Shown here one piece after another: positions 32-20,287 of a stretch of DNA of 23,149 nt (within the stretch, counting starts at the first letter, position 1; every line of letters begins with the position of its first letter). A program made the position numbers and the translations under genes. Source of the DNA: a virus; IMG/VR virus record IMGVR_UViG_3300035158_000132, positions 1 to 23,149 of that record; one strand, written 5' to 3'. The notes under the pieces are model-generated. The model did no database searches. It had not been told where the DNA came from and saw nothing but the letters and a program-made list of their open reading frames with translations.

Positions 32-649
32 TTATCTGTCGATGATGGATTTGAGTCCGTAGCCAAGCCCTGCGCCAGCAAGGAAAGCAACGATCGCCAT
101 GATCATGGTTCTAATCTTTCGGATCCGAATTTCCGTCTCCGCCGCATCCAGGGCCTTCTCCCAGGAGATCTCGGAGGCCTCGTAACTCGCCGAGAGCTGC
201 TTCAGCCTCGTCTCTAATTGCCCGATTGTATTTAGAAGCTCGTCCGCCCGATGCCTGTATTTCTGCAGTGAGGTTTTGGAGGCCTCGAGTTCGGTCCTCA
301 GCTGCCCGAGCTCGCTCAACAGCCGCTCGATATTCTTTTTCTGTTCTGCCGAGATCTTCTGCGAGCTGTCGAGCTTGGCTTTCAGCCCGGATAGCTCGGT
401 CAACAGCCCTTTGATTTGCTTCTTCTGCTCTTCGGAGATCTTCTGCGACTGCTGCAGCTCTTCCTTGAGCCGATCGGAGTAGCCGATGATACGACTCAAT
501 TTGTACTCGATGCTCAGCAGCTGCTTGTTCGGCTCGCTCGCGTAGCTCGGCCACGGTAGCAGAAGCAGGGCGATACAGAGCCACAAGCACAACACCCGCT
601 CCCAGGAGAATGCCGATCGCAAAGGCGATAAGAATCCACTTGAACGCAT
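32..649 (-). CDS. Overlapping coiled-coil protein with signal sequence and C-terminal membrane helix (205 residues)
   Basis: This ORF lies almost wholly over the 180-residue ORF in another frame and runs 79 bases further. From ATG 649: a basic start, a signal-like hydrophobic core (residues 19-33, 'VLCLWLCIALLLLPW') with possible signal peptidase I site after 'PSYA', then a coiled coil (about 45-165) including two 28-residue repeats, and a C-terminal Gly-rich membrane helix ('MIMAIVAFLAGAGLGYGL'). Codon third positions are strongly GC-rich from about codon 19 on, as in the neighbours, so it is the better-supported frame there. TTG at 592 after GGGAG, or GTG at 595, are alternative starts. No lipobox is visible, so it is not a standard Rz1-like outer-membrane lipoprotein. 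Probable spanin partner. Confidence 0.65.
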   Translation of the reverse strand: MRSSGFLSPLRSAFSWERVLCLWLCIALLLLPWPSYASEPNKQLLSIEYKLSRIIGYSDRLKEELQQSQKISEEQKKQIKGLLTELSGLKAKLDSSQKISAEQKKNIERLLSELGQLRTELEASKTSLQKYRHRADELLNTIGQLETRLKQLSASYEASEISWEKALDAAETEIRIRKIRTMIMAIVAFLAGAGLGYGLKSIIDR

Positions 650-653
650 TCAT
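111..653 (-). CDS. i-spanin-like protein: N-terminal membrane helix plus coiled coil (180 residues)
   Basis: ATG at 653 overlaps the holin stop (ATGA), continuing the overlap chain of this cassette. Residues 5-27 ('KWILIAFAIGILLGAGVVLV') are an excellent N-terminal membrane helix, and residues about 34-150 are Ala/Arg/Glu-rich coiled coil ('RRAEEANQRAVDRAIRAESQ'), the classic inner-membrane spanin (Rz-like) plan. Codon third positions in the first 18 codons are GC-leaning like other genes here, but become A/T-rich where the frame lies over the 205-residue ORF, as expected if the second frame is the more constrained. The gene may therefore be a true dual-coding partner, or only its first part is under selection. 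No enzymatic function expected. Confidence 0.55.
   Translation of the reverse strand: MNAFKWILIAFAIGILLGAGVVLVALYRPASATVAELRERAEQAAAEHRVQIESYHRLLRSAQGRAAAVAEDLRRAEEANQRAVDRAIRAESQARQLAEDLGRTEKEYRAAVERARAAEDRTRGLQNLTAEIQASGGRASKYNRAIRDEAEAALGELRGLRDLLGEGPGCGGDGNSDPKD
281..448 (-). repeat. Tandem 84-base repeat (two copies) inside the overlapping lysis ORFs
   Basis: Copy 1 is 448-365 and copy 2 is 364-281 on the minus strand, marked by the shared segment TCGCAGAAGATCTC. The period is 28 codons, exactly four heptads, so the coiled coil is lengthened without breaking its register, in both reading frames. Copies are diverged (SQKISEEQKKQIKGLLTELS versus SQKISAEQKKNIERLLSELG in the 205-residue frame). 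Confidence 0.85.
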
Positions 654-1520: not shown

Positions 1521-1757
1521 CTACGAAAACCAGATCAGTTTGACCATGGTCGCCACGATCGAAAGCGCGACCGTGCCGATCAGCCCGAGTACCCAAAGCC
1601 GCAGGCTTTTCAGTTCCTCCTCCACTCGCTTCATCGAATCGCTTAAGCCGTTGAATACCCGCTCGCGCACCGCCTTCACGTCTGTTTCGATGCGGTCCTG
1701 GTTTTGCTCCAGCTTGGTGAATCGGTCCTTGCAGATCTTCTCGTAATTGTCGCTCAT
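1521..1757 (-). CDS. XhlA-like membrane protein (holin or holin accessory)
   Basis: 78 residues, ATGA overlap with the preceding gene. Residues 1-52 are hydrophilic and heptad-like ('RFTKLEQNQDRIETDVKAVR' and 'GLSDSMKRVEEELKSLR'), followed by one membrane helix at about 53-76 ('LWVLGLIGTVALSIVATMVK'). Coiled coil plus a single C-terminal membrane helix is the layout of XhlA/hemolysin-type proteins, which sit beside holins and endolysins and help release or activate the endolysin. It lies directly before the M23 endolysin gene (26-base gap). A holin in its own right is the alternative. Confidence 0.72.
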   Translation of the reverse strand: MSDNYEKICKDRFTKLEQNQDRIETDVKAVRERVFNGLSDSMKRVEEELKSLRLWVLGLIGTVALSIVATMVKLIWFS

Positions 1758-1990
1758 GGCGCCGCCTTCGCCTCCAGTTCTGCGATCCTTTCTTCCAATT
1801 CGCGCAACTTTGTATCTCTTGGATGCTCCGGCTCCACATAATCCTTGCCACCGGGCTGACGGTCCAGAATGCGCTGTGGAATGGCATCCACGATAATAAA
1901 TCCGTTCGCCAATTTCTTTTCGTCAACTTTTCGGCCTACCGGCGTGTACTGCCATCCGCCGCCAGGATATTCTTTGAAATACCATCTCAT
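1754..1990 (-). CDS. Hypothetical 78-residue protein downstream of tail fibre
   Basis: Starts at an ATG overlapping the fibre stop (ATGA) and ends overlapping the next ATG in the same manner. N-terminal half begins 'MRWYFKEYPGGGWQYTPVGR' and looks like a small beta domain; the C-terminal third is a short coiled coil ('DTKLRELEERIAELEAKA'). No signal peptide or membrane segment. I do not recognise it; the coiled coil might attach it to the fibre or trimerise it, like small fibre-assembly or cap proteins, but this is inference from the position only. Confidence 0.7.
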   Translation of the reverse strand: MRWYFKEYPGGGWQYTPVGRKVDEKKLANGFIIVDAIPQRILDRQPGGKDYVEPEHPRDTKLRELEERIAELEAKAAP

Positions 1991-8698: not shown

Positions 8699-10626
8699 CT
8701 CTCACCCTCCCAGCGATACCACTCGCCCGGCCTTTGATACATGTACCAGTACGTTCCGTCGAAGAACGCAGGGGTACCGCCAATTTCCCCCCGGGCTACC
8801 GGGTCCGCGCCCTTGAAGCGCCTGTAGCGCTCGAGGTCCGGATCTTCGGCGGTCAGAGGTACGGTTTCCGGCTCAGGCAGCTTTTCATATTCTTTTTTTG
8901 CGCTCCACTTTCTGAACAGCCCGCCGGTCCTCTCCGCCCGATCACCAAGGAGTAAGCCTTGTGCAAACTCGAGGAGGCCCTTTTCGGTGAGCTTGCGGTT
9001 GGTACCCGGGAGTATCCCGGTGGTGACCACTTCGTCGAAGGTTTTGAAAATGTTGGATTGCTTCAACCGGGCTTCCAGGACTTTTGACTGATCCAGCTCG
9101 TCACGGCAGATGTCGTCAAAGTAGCTGTCGATCATATCCAGGGCCACTTTCTCGGTTACATAGGTTGTGCGGCGGCTCACCTTGTCGAGCCATCTTGTCG
9201 CATCGGCGTTGCTCAGGCCCTTTCCGTGCTTACTCTTGATGAAATCTCTCACCTGGTCGTTGCTATAGGCGGAGGTGTCGTAAAACATGCGGATAACCTC
9301 GGCGAGCACGTTGTCGTCCGTGACCTCAAGCGGCCCCTCTTTCTCAGCCGCTTTGTGCATTTTGGTATCCCGGCTCCGGTATTCATCGATCAGGTGTTCC
9401 TTGTCCTCGTTGGTCAAATCGGGATCACCGAGAATACGCTCCTCGACCTGCTCCTCCTGGCCCATGGGCCAATCGATGATCTCAGAGTAAGCCCGGAGAT
9501 AGGCCTCTGAAATCTCCTCCTTCCTGGCCTTTTCCCTCATATCTTCTAGGTCTTTTTGCCGCTGTTTCTCAGCTTCACGCTTCTCTTCGGCAAGGTCGTT
9601 AATCAGATTGCGCCAGTGCTCTTTGCGCTCCCTCGACAGATCCGAGTCTCGGATCTCAACCCAGGTCGGGAGATTGCCTTTCTGCAGGCGGTCCATATAG
9701 TCCAGTTCGGTCTTGTCACCGGATTGCTTGCGCCGCTGCTTTTCCCTCTCCTGTGAGACACCCCACTGTCTCCAAATCTCGTCTACGATTTCGGTCCGCT
9801 GTTCGGGCATATCATCGAGAAACGGGGTGTTCTTCTCGATCCACTGCTCGGCGTATTCGGGGCTGTCCGTGGTGCGAAGAATATCGAGTCCCGTTTGGGT
9901 GGTGTCATGAACTTGTTTCTTGAAGAGCAGGGATTTGTATTTCGCCCTGCTTCCTTCAAGCAGATTATCGGCCTGCGGATCCCCCAGCCAGTTCCGGGCA
10001 CTGTTGATCACGGCCTCTACGGGTGCGAAATCTCCAATGTTGACTGCATCGGCCATGGCATTGTTCACGTTGCGCTCGAATTGTTTCTGCGTTTGTTCTA
10101 TGGCATAGTTGCGCCCGTACGTCAGGGCCGCTTGAGTGCTTTGATTGTACATCTGGTAGAGCTGATCTTTGGCCCAGGATTGCACCCGGGGGAAAGCCTC
10201 GTATTGCTCTTCAATTGCTGACAATGACTCCTGATACCAGGTCTCGAACTCAGCGGGCATTTGCATAATACGACTGCCTTTATCGTCAGTGGCCCAGGTG
10301 AATTGATTGTTGTCGATGTAGGTCCGAACCTTGCCGGTCATCTGCTGCTGCAGATCGTGAAGGTCAGCCTTGGCAGTCTCAAAGTTTTGCTGCTCAAAGA
10401 TTCCGTAGACGCTCTGTCCGAACTGAAGGAGCAATTCGGCCACACCCAGGGCGGTCTCGGCAACTAGACCCCGTCTCTGAACGCTGCGCTGGCGCTCCTC
10501 GAGGTTGCGGATCCGTCCCATGATATCCAGAGACTCGGTGCCGATCAGAGTAGACTTCGCCCCTGTTTTCAGTTGAATGGCCCGATACAGGGGGCTATAG
10601 TCTACTTGCGGAAGTAAAATTGGCAT
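8680..10626 (-). CDS. Putative internal core/DNA-ejection protein, long alpha-helical (648 residues)
   Basis: ATG at 10626 with AAGGA upstream. Almost entirely helical and charged, with many coiled-coil stretches ('KREAEKQRQKDLEDMREKAR' at about residues 350) and no signal peptide or catalytic motif. The N-terminal 'LLPQVDYSPLYRAIQL' and 'AETALGVAELLLQFGQSVYG' and the C-terminal aromatic 'FFDGTYWYMYQRPGEWYRWE' are notable. Size and place, second of three large proteins between nozzle and fibre genes, fit the middle ejection protein (T7 gp15-like role, building a tunnel through the periplasm). There is little sequence-level support beyond this. It overlaps the next gene by 19 bases. Confidence 0.65.
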   Translation of the reverse strand: MPILLPQVDYSPLYRAIQLKTGAKSTLIGTESLDIMGRIRNLEERQRSVQRRGLVAETALGVAELLLQFGQSVYGIFEQQNFETAKADLHDLQQQMTGKVRTYIDNNQFTWATDDKGSRIMQMPAEFETWYQESLSAIEEQYEAFPRVQSWAKDQLYQMYNQSTQAALTYGRNYAIEQTQKQFERNVNNAMADAVNIGDFAPVEAVINSARNWLGDPQADNLLEGSRAKYKSLLFKKQVHDTTQTGLDILRTTDSPEYAEQWIEKNTPFLDDMPEQRTEIVDEIWRQWGVSQEREKQRRKQSGDKTELDYMDRLQKGNLPTWVEIRDSDLSRERKEHWRNLINDLAEEKREAEKQRQKDLEDMREKARKEEISEAYLRAYSEIIDWPMGQEEQVEERILGDPDLTNEDKEHLIDEYRSRDTKMHKAAEKEGPLEVTDDNVLAEVIRMFYDTSAYSNDQVRDFIKSKHGKGLSNADATRWLDKVSRRTTYVTEKVALDMIDSYFDDICRDELDQSKVLEARLKQSNIFKTFDEVVTTGILPGTNRKLTEKGLLEFAQGLLLGDRAERTGGLFRKWSAKKEYEKLPEPETVPLTAEDPDLERYRRFKGADPVARGEIGGTPAFFDGTYWYMYQRPGEWYRWEGERWVIAR

Positions 10627-18635: not shown

Positions 18636-19361
18636 TTACCAGAAGTCGTACGGATCCCACTGCGGTCCTTCCTGCTCCTGCGGTAGCTCCCGCTCGGGGA
18701 TCTCCTGTTGCGGTCGGTGTTTTACAAACCACCAAGCGCCCATGAGAAAGCAGATCACCAGATCGTCATGCTCCTCTTCGGTCTCCGCCTCGTAGACCTT
18801 CCGCTTGGTCTTCTCGTTGATCTTGCCCCGAAACCGCTTGAACTGCTCGCGCGCCTCCTCCGCCCATTTCAGTCCTGCGGCCACCCGCACCCGCTCCTGC
18901 TGCACAAGGAGCTGCCCTGCGGCTACCAAGTCGGTTTTGGGTACGTGGATCTCCTTGAGCGTCCGCATCTTCAACCTGGGCGCTCCGGGAAACACTTCAG
19001 CCACATCGGCGTAGACTTCCCGTACCTTTCCGGCGCCGGTGGTAACAATCGGTACGGGCCTCAAGCCTTTTTCCCGCATGATCTCCACTACGGCCTCACC
19101 TACCCCGGTACCATCAACGATCAGCTCGGCGTTCTCTACAAGACTCGCCTTTTGCAGAAGCTCGCCAATCTCATCCACAATCGGATGATAATGAACACCC
19201 TGTTTCTGCGTGATGTACACGATATCGTAATAGTGCACCACGCGGTTCAGCTGCTTCAAAAGCTCATAGCCGAGCACGACCTGCGGGTTATCCTTCATGA
19301 CCATGATAGCGGTGTAATCCCGCTTTTTGGCCAGATCCACCAAAACCGCATACTCTTTCAC
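18636..19361 (-). CDS. Terminase large subunit, RNase H-fold nuclease domain only (split TerL)
   Basis: 241 residues from a GTG whose own SD, GGAGAG, lies three bases upstream. The RNase H-like nuclease pattern is complete: first acidic residue D9 in 'YAVLVDLAKKRDYTAI', second D83 in 'ELIVDGTGVG', third D199/D200 in 'EEHDDLVICFLMGAWW'. These are the metal-binding residues that cut concatemeric DNA in large terminases. No ATPase motifs are present. With the preceding 309-residue ATPase protein the total, about 550 residues, equals an ordinary one-piece large terminase. The two proteins presumably associate to form the motor-nuclease. Stop is nine bases before the portal gene. Confidence 0.9.
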   Translation of the reverse strand: MKEYAVLVDLAKKRDYTAIMVMKDNPQVVLGYELLKQLNRVVHYYDIVYITQKQGVHYHPIVDEIGELLQKASLVENAELIVDGTGVGEAVVEIMREKGLRPVPIVTTGAGKVREVYADVAEVFPGAPRLKMRTLKEIHVPKTDLVAAGQLLVQQERVRVAAGLKWAEEAREQFKRFRGKINEKTKRKVYEAETEEEHDDLVICFLMGAWWFVKHRPQQEIPERELPQEQEGPQWDPYDFW

Positions 19362-20287
19362 AGACTCTCCACATGAGGACTCACCAGAACGCCCTCTTTG
19401 TCTTCAGCCTTCAGCGGATGATCAAAGATCCGGTCAACCTGGTCGTAATCGAACACCAGGTCCTCCGGCTCCACGTACTCACACAGATACTCCTGGCGGA
19501 ACCAGCGCTCTCCATGCTCCTCCAGCTCCTCGAGCATGAACTCCTTATCCCGGTGCCGGGGTGAATAGAATCCATGGATTCCGTTGGCCGCCATCCGCCT
19601 GCGGAACTGCGCTTCGCCTTCCGCAGGGATCAACTCCCCATATTCGTTCAGATCCCAGGGAGCCTTGACCACGACCCGCAACCACCGCCTCGACTGGCTG
19701 GCCCGATAGAACCATCCGTCCCGCCCGTTGGGAGTACTCAGGGCGATCACCACGCACCGAGGATTTTCGGTCAGCATGGGCCGCACCGTCTTGTACAGCA
19801 CGTCCTCAATCCAGGCTGCCTCGTCGAAGACGATCACCCGGGGCATGGATTTTCCCCGCTTGGTCTTGGCCGTCGACGTATGAGCTCGGACGTAGCTTCC
19901 GTTGGGAAGCTTGATATGCTCAGTCGAGTCCAGCACCAAGTGCGGATACGAATCGTCTCGCCTGATGAAATCTTTTACCCGCTCGATATCGTCCTTCGAC
20001 TGATCATCCGAAGGCGCATAGATCAGGCTGAGGGCCCGCTCCGTTTTCGACACATACGCCGGCACACCTGCGGTGACCGTGCTTTTGCCCGATTGCCTGG
20101 CCCCGTTGATATGAACCCGGGTCCAGCCCTTCTTGATCGCATCCAGAGCAAACACCTGCCATTCAAACGGCTCATATCCAAGCCGCCGCAGGTACTCGGT
20201 GGGATCCACCGTGTCCAGCAGCTCAAGCGCCAGCAATCTCCTTAAGTGCTGCGACAATCCTGCTTCGGGCATCGGGTACATCTTCAA
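19358..20287 (-). CDS. terL: Terminase large subunit, ATPase domain only (split TerL)
   Basis: 309 residues. It is the DNA-packaging motor ATPase: Walker A at about residues 62-70 (GARQSGKST), Walker B at 151-156 (VIVFDE), and the coupling motif at 184-188 (STPNG). Residues 36-45 ('LGYEPFEWQ') resemble the adenine-binding Q motif region. The protein stops after 'EDLVFDYDQVDRIFDHP', the place where a normal large terminase passes into its nuclease domain; that domain is encoded by the next gene, which starts in the -1 frame through a GTGA overlap. The start at 20287 overlaps the small terminase gene by 65 bases; ATGs at 20281 and 20272 are alternatives and would only shorten the N-terminus slightly. 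It should act with the portal at the prohead vertex. Confidence 0.93.
   Translation of the reverse strand: MKMYPMPEAGLSQHLRRLLALELLDTVDPTEYLRRLGYEPFEWQVFALDAIKKGWTRVHINGARQSGKSTVTAGVPAYVSKTERALSLIYAPSDDQSKDDIERVKDFIRRDDSYPHLVLDSTEHIKLPNGSYVRAHTSTAKTKRGKSMPRVIVFDEAAWIEDVLYKTVRPMLTENPRCVVIALSTPNGRDGWFYRASQSRRWLRVVVKAPWDLNEYGELIPAEGEAQFRRRMAANGIHGFYSPRHRDKEFMLEELEEHGERWFRQEYLCEYVEPEDLVFDYDQVDRIFDHPLKAEDKEGVLVSPHVESL

Follow-up and report, generated by a model that had tools for sequence, protein, structure and literature searches.

Two-component spanins such as those of lambda (Rz/Rz1), T7 (18.5/18.7) and epsilon15 (Rz/Rz1) are encoded in the lysis region by a gene for a coiled-coil protein with an N-terminal transmembrane (TM) helix, the i-spanin, and by a partner gene in an overlapping frame, which in lambda is the +1 frame. 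The partners are lipoproteins of 60-91 residues, and their genes start at 0.41 (epsilon15), 0.27 (T7) and 0.48 (lambda) of the i-gene and are fully embedded in it. In overlapped spanins of the P2 LysB/LysC type the partner, again an o-spanin lipoprotein, has a gene that extends past the end of the i-gene. Proteins of the T1 gp11 type, the u-spanins, combine an N-terminal export signal with a C-terminal membrane helix and have no periplasmic Cys; they work alone, as lipoproteins whose periplasmic domains are rich in beta structure (PMC6139136). Kongari et al. (2018) defined both o-spanins and u-spanins by a lipobox, reported periplasmic cysteines to be ubiquitous in two-component spanins, and named a type I inner-membrane protein as a possible spanin, untested there (PMC6139136). 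Candidates without a lipobox were dropped from a 2025 survey (PMC12596118), and about 13% of the surveyed phages of Gram-negative hosts have no recognisable spanin (PMC6139136; PMC12596118).

The window analysed here, a stretch of 23,149 nt (positions 1 to 23,149 of IMG/VR virus record IMGVR_UViG_3300035158_000132), has structural genes resembling those of the epsilon15 group (portal PF12236, E = 3e-90), and its left edge is the lysis end of the record, encoded on the minus strand. There the gene for an M23 peptidase, presumed to be the endolysin (1494-874; Pfam PF01551, E = 2.7e-12; PHROG 7767, E = 3.1e-12), is followed by the gene for a small hydrophobic protein of 75 residues (877-650) and then by two ORFs in overlapping frames, 653..111 (180 aa) and 649..32 (205 aa), as a sequence-only reading of this DNA had proposed. 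That reading placed the ORFs after a holin gene; the 75-aa protein is indeed holin-like in size and hydrophobicity, but it has no family match in Pfam, PHROG or NCBIfam on which the name holin could rest. Its TGA stop overlaps the start of the 180-aa gene (ATGA), and the ATG of the 205-aa gene follows directly. The two ATGs, four bases apart (ATGAATG), stand behind one Shine-Dalgarno sequence, AAGGAGGG (664-657, minus strand), which is spaced 3 nt from the 180-aa start and 7 nt from the 205-aa start and forms an anti-SD duplex of -11.8 kcal/mol, compared with -8.1 kcal/mol reached by 5% of the internal out-of-frame starts of this virus. The dual-coding stretch, previously put at more than 500 bases, counts 539, or 99% of the 180-aa gene. 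Overlap length alone was not taken as proof, since chance ORFs on the same strand reach 137 aa elsewhere in the window.

With either protein as query, searches of 50,697 phage genomes and of IMG/VR returned nothing usable, and neighbouring genes were therefore taken as bait. This led to two relatives with the pair. G001 resembles the window in its capsid and tail module (about 64-86% protein identity for most genes) and differs in its endolysin, an amidase (PHROG 9611); at the corresponding place it encodes a 157-aa coiled-coil protein with an N-terminal TM helix (L005 4774-4301) and a 156-aa protein, read in +1, with a signal, a coil and a C-terminal TM helix (L005 4722-4252), whose internal GTG start has an SD of its own (-10.2 kcal/mol). 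L010, which has an integrase and a tape-measure-like gene, belongs to another phage type; a 78-aa tail-region protein is common to it and the window, and its pair consists of proteins of 146 aa (9296-9736) and 179 aa (9309-9848), again in +1 relation. By tblastn, the 205-aa frame was found in G001 (5e-10) and in L010 (5e-8). Offset, layout and site after the holin-like gene are the same in all three viruses. A third relative, L009, lacks the pair and has a 142-aa holin-like gene instead; given its presence in G001 and in the other phage type L010, the module therefore moves between phage types. A profile of the partner matched none of 29 epsilon15-like records, a weak answer because no positive record was included. 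A blind scan for two overlapping frames, one with an N-terminal TM helix and the other with a signal and a C-terminal TM helix, covered 748 kb of sequence, among it Petty, BPP-1, LUZ24 and half of P74-26 as phages without a spanin, and returned only the window and G001; L010 fell outside the cut-offs, hence the scan is not fully sensitive. A search for the host by way of prophages, with the 78-aa tail-region protein and the portal protein, gave no relative in 84,980 species genomes, and no tRNAs were found as a host clue.

According to the sequence-only reading, one ORF would be a shadow if homologues conserved only the other, and this is not what the relatives display: G001 and L010 keep both frames open. 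Each frame was further compared with a permutation null, in which one protein was held fixed, its synonymous codons were permuted, and the other frame was scored. With the 205 frame fixed, the 180 frame stays open in 0.0008 (window, 5000 trials), 0.0098 (G001) and 0.042 (L010) of the trials; with the 180 frame fixed, the 205 frame does so in 0.009, 0.16 and 0.014, respectively. The TM hydrophobicity of the window 180 frame was equalled in none of the 5000 permutations of 205-frame codons. Between the window and L010, the 180-frame similarity of 158 lies 12 SD above the null (46 ± 9, maximum 79), and the reverse test gives 141 for the 205 frame, with a null of 45 ± 10; the TM and coil parts of the 180 frame are each significant alone, as is the coil part of the 205 frame, but the signal region of the latter is not (p 0.05). 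Control genes shared by the window and L010 show that this null is fair for the two viruses: third codon positions are saturated in them (identity 0.32-0.33) and not in the overlap (0.46), and their shadow frames give z values of only -0.4 to 2.7. No weight was placed on gene pairs from the closely related window and G001, where ancestry can raise the shadow z to 7.1; comparison of the overlap with G001 gives 180-frame z values near 3 and 4, weaker than for window and L010. Since the 180-frame similarity is far above the null and the reverse test is passed as well, both frames probably encode selected proteins, and we regard dual coding as well supported by the three sequences.

Coiled coils had been claimed for both frames, and both heptad periodicity and AlphaFold2 models, a single long helix for each protein, agree with this; the periodicity of 3.5 residues is present in both frames of the window, G001 and L010 beyond the imprint of the other frame. 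The codon-bias claim held as well, with bases 1-60 favouring the 180 frame and most of the remainder the 205 frame. Native codon usage sits in the 205 frame and not in the i-spanin frame in all three viruses, which suggests that the 205 frame is the older and that the i-spanin frame was laid over it. The same bias would be expected if only the 205-aa frame were a gene and the 180-aa frame a shadow of a GC3-rich coiled-coil gene, its heptad periodicity and G/C-ending codons leaking across to give a stop-free Ala/Arg/Glu helix, and part of the 180-frame heptad power in the window can be accounted for in this way (mean null 6.9, observed 13.8). We consider this explanation very improbable, as it leaves unexplained the open 180 frame in three viruses, the separately significant similarity of its TM and coil parts to L010, far above that of any control shadow, and a TM segment that the permutations never reached. 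Even less credible is the converse, that the 180-aa i-spanin is the only gene and that the true o-spanin lies past the contig end or elsewhere. The window does end 31 bases past the 205-aa stop, and the i-spanin is normally the dominant frame, as in the full-codon scores of epsilon15, T7 and lambda; here, however, the native bias is carried by the 205 frame, tblastn recovers this frame in both relatives, its similarity to L010 persists with the 180-aa protein fixed, and its C-terminal TM helix, mostly outside the overlap, is nevertheless kept in all three viruses.

The 180-aa product has the i-spanin plan that had been ascribed to it, namely an N-terminal TM helix and a predicted periplasmic domain of the usual coiled-coil kind. 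The TM helix comprises about residues 5-27 (573..641, minus strand; peak Kyte-Doolittle value 2.87 at residue 7) and is followed by an Ala/Arg/Glu heptad coil of 136 residues reaching to residue 163 and a short disordered tail with Cys169; AlphaFold2 models residues 3-163 as a single helix. One C-terminal Cys is present in this protein and its L010 homologue, and the G001 homologue has none outside the TM helix. Similarity to PHROG 739 (Rz-like spanin) is E = 0.063, and neither Pfam nor NCBIfam gave a significant spanin match.

The 205-aa product begins with a signal peptide (536..649, minus strand), identified by sequence reading, a hydrophobic peak and an AlphaFold2 helix at residues 16-30, and consisting of an R-rich n-region, the core LWLCIALLLL and a site of the signal peptidase I (SPase I) type, S-Y-A followed by S after the cut. 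A second modelled helix spans residues 43-204 (pLDDT > 90 over most of the coil), within which the coil takes up the 138 residues, about 20 nm, between residue 43 and the hydrophobic segment at about 181. The segment itself is a Gly/Ala-rich membrane helix (residues 181-199; 53..109, minus strand; Kyte-Doolittle value 1.83 at residue 181). The C-terminal segments of the partners in the three viruses are TMIMAIVAFLAGAGLGYGLKSIIDR, TISLIELIAILVGGTVCIPSR and IVSSWGIPAAFAAGILGGFLISR, directly preceded by the basic clusters RIRKIR (in the 205-aa protein), RQKKFWR and RARFWR. The mature 205-aa chain contains no cysteine. The best PHROG for the G001 partner is again 739 (E = 1e-4); the tape-measure and SMC proteins that PHROG, Pfam and NCBIfam gave as matches for the 205-aa product were set aside as coiled-coil noise. 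A lipobox scan that recovered Rz1 of lambda, T7 gp18.7 and epsilon15 Rz1 as positive controls found no lipoprotein candidate in the window or in 13 kb of L010; G001 gave weak matches and, far away from its cassette, two plausible lipoproteins.

Compared with the described classes, the partner gene overlaps its i-gene in the +1 frame in all three viruses, as an o-spanin gene may, but the 205-aa protein has no Cys after the hydrophobic core and no lipoprotein signal; it has the C-terminal TM helix of a u-spanin, again without the lipobox. By definition it is therefore neither an o-spanin nor a u-spanin, and the different topology proposed from the sequence, a lipobox-free partner longer than its host gene and ending in a membrane helix, corresponds to no class in the survey (PMC6139136). 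The contrast drawn with lambda Rz/Rz1 stands in its details and is slightly misleading in that overlapped spanins with an o-gene running past the i-gene were already known. Instead of 60-91 residues, the partners of the window, G001 and L010 have 156-205 and a C-terminal TM helix; their genes start at 0.01, 0.11 and 0.03 of the i-gene, respectively, cover 89-99% of it and run past its end, as in the P2 type but without the lipobox. The 205-aa protein shares with gp11 the order of export signal and membrane helix and the lack of periplasmic Cys, and differs from it in its all-helical coil and co-encoded i-spanin-like protein as well as in the missing lipobox.

How one DNA serves two such proteins may follow from the code. 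The same DNA codes for the signal peptide of the 205-aa protein and for the TM helix of the 180-aa protein, and a TM helix would overlap naturally with a signal peptide because hydrophobic NTN codons read in +1 give TNN (F, L, S, Y, C, W). Both frames can form coils of equal length because the coil repeat is 21 nt in every frame; the common DNA would account for the matched lengths of the two coils, and duplications of 21n nt lengthen both equally. The window contains such an event, an imperfect tandem duplication with a period of 84 nt (copies of four heptads at 375..458 and 291..374, minus strand; 82% identity over 56 nt), which added 28 residues to each coil in register, approximately the length difference from L010.

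The conserved Cys in the hydrophobic core raises the possibility that the signal region contains a non-canonical lipobox, such as LWLC, and that the pair is an overlapped spanin of the ordinary kind; the residue is kept in all three viruses, and a valid lipobox can be as unusual as AWAC (PMC6139136). We judge this improbable. The Cys begins the hydrophobic core and is followed by a further hydrophobic run, whereas a lipobox Cys ends the core, and a good SPase I site comes after it; moreover, C and W at these positions are forced where Val codons of the overlapping TM helix are read in +1 (GTN then TGN), which probably explains their conservation in the core (LCLWLC) better than lipidation does. 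More serious, albeit still unlikely in our estimate, is that both proteins are real and act in lysis control or in the envelope without joining two membranes, for example as a holin/antiholin regulator or an inner-membrane coil complex. Standard type I topology would make both of them inner-membrane proteins, the outer-membrane anchor of the pair being our inference, and a second protein with a coil and a C-terminal TM helix, XhlA/DUF2951-like (1521..1757, minus strand; DUF2951 9.1e-5, XhlA 0.005, both below the curated cut-off), is encoded in the same cassette. Nevertheless, the pair resembles spanins in its place as the last of the cassette, in its +1 overlap, in the i-spanin plan of one member, which has a C-terminal Cys in two of the three viruses, and in coils about 20 nm long.

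On balance we lean towards a spanin-like reading, mainly because of position, overlap and topology: the locus is a candidate dual-coded lysis gene for a two-component, lipid-free pair spanning the periplasm, whose two frames are both kept, immediately behind a holin-like gene, in three diverged viruses. The 180-aa product would be anchored in the inner membrane through its N-terminal helix and send a single-helix coil of about 20 nm outward, like lambda Rz. The 205-aa product would be exported by its Sec signal, cut by signal peptidase I, and present a coil of equal length held not by an N-terminal lipid but by the Gly/Ala-rich helix at the C-terminus, thereby taking the place of the o-spanin. 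The two coils would pair in the periplasm, and once the endolysin had removed the peptidoglycan, the complex would collapse and bring the inner and outer membranes together. For the C-terminal helix, insertion into the outer membrane is slightly favoured over the inner membrane of a type I protein, because the preceding basic cluster is predicted to lie in the periplasm once the coil is exported, and an anchor in the inner membrane would then violate the positive-inside rule. Several points speak against the spanin reading: the partner lacks the lipobox by which o-spanins and u-spanins are defined, the family matches are weak and driven by the coil, a single-helix anchor in the outer membrane would be unusual, and the mature 205-aa chain has no Cys, in contrast to the surveyed two-component spanins. 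If the host were monoderm, no spanin would be needed.

It is a tentative proposal that the pair represents a third kind of spanin, lipid-free, with two equally long coils from one DNA and a C-terminal helix at the outer membrane. If this is true, lipid-free spanins may explain some of the phages that seem to have no spanin, and they would have been missed because every survey demands a lipobox. Alternative anchoring was raised, and not tested, by the first survey (PMC6139136), and the pair is a concrete candidate for it. The locus is also a clear example from nature of a pair of long coiled-coil membrane proteins with almost all coding DNA in common, in which the compatibility of two coils in two frames can now be tested by matched length, the 21-nt period and the placement of a TM helix over a signal peptide. 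New here are the same arrangement in two further viruses, the matched coil lengths and the native codon usage in the 205 frame.

Some minor observations concern the surroundings of the pair. The plausible lipoproteins of G001 (170 and 134 aa; L005 861-1373 and contig ~32254, minus strand) are possibly products of lysogeny or early accessory genes, and no i-spanin-like neighbour was noticed. The tail-region protein common to the window and L010 belongs to a conserved group of 78-82 aa with the motif PGGKDY (window 1754-1990; L005 6821-7069; L009 8001-8249; L010 8001-8246), for which neither phage isolates nor species genomes gave a match; it sits after a tail-fibre-like gene in otherwise different phages and marks a mobile tail-tip and lysis module. 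The slot after it holds small coil and TM proteins, mostly unrelated in sequence, in four viruses (window 1521-1757; L010 8243-8506; L005 6594-6824; L009 8275-8478), possibly a further holin-like component. Between the endolysin and the holin-like gene, G001 has a partly masked (N) 233-aa metallophosphoesterase-like ORF (L005 5285-5986), of which L009 has a fuller 253-aa version (8955-9716). Finally, the large terminase of the window is apparently split into two adjacent genes on the minus strand (18636-19361 and 19358-20287), with an ATPase part of 309 aa (PHROG 2, E = 6e-27) and a nuclease part of 241 aa (Terminase_6C, E = 7e-5), and the same split is present in G001 (L003 2448-3374 and 3374-4096).
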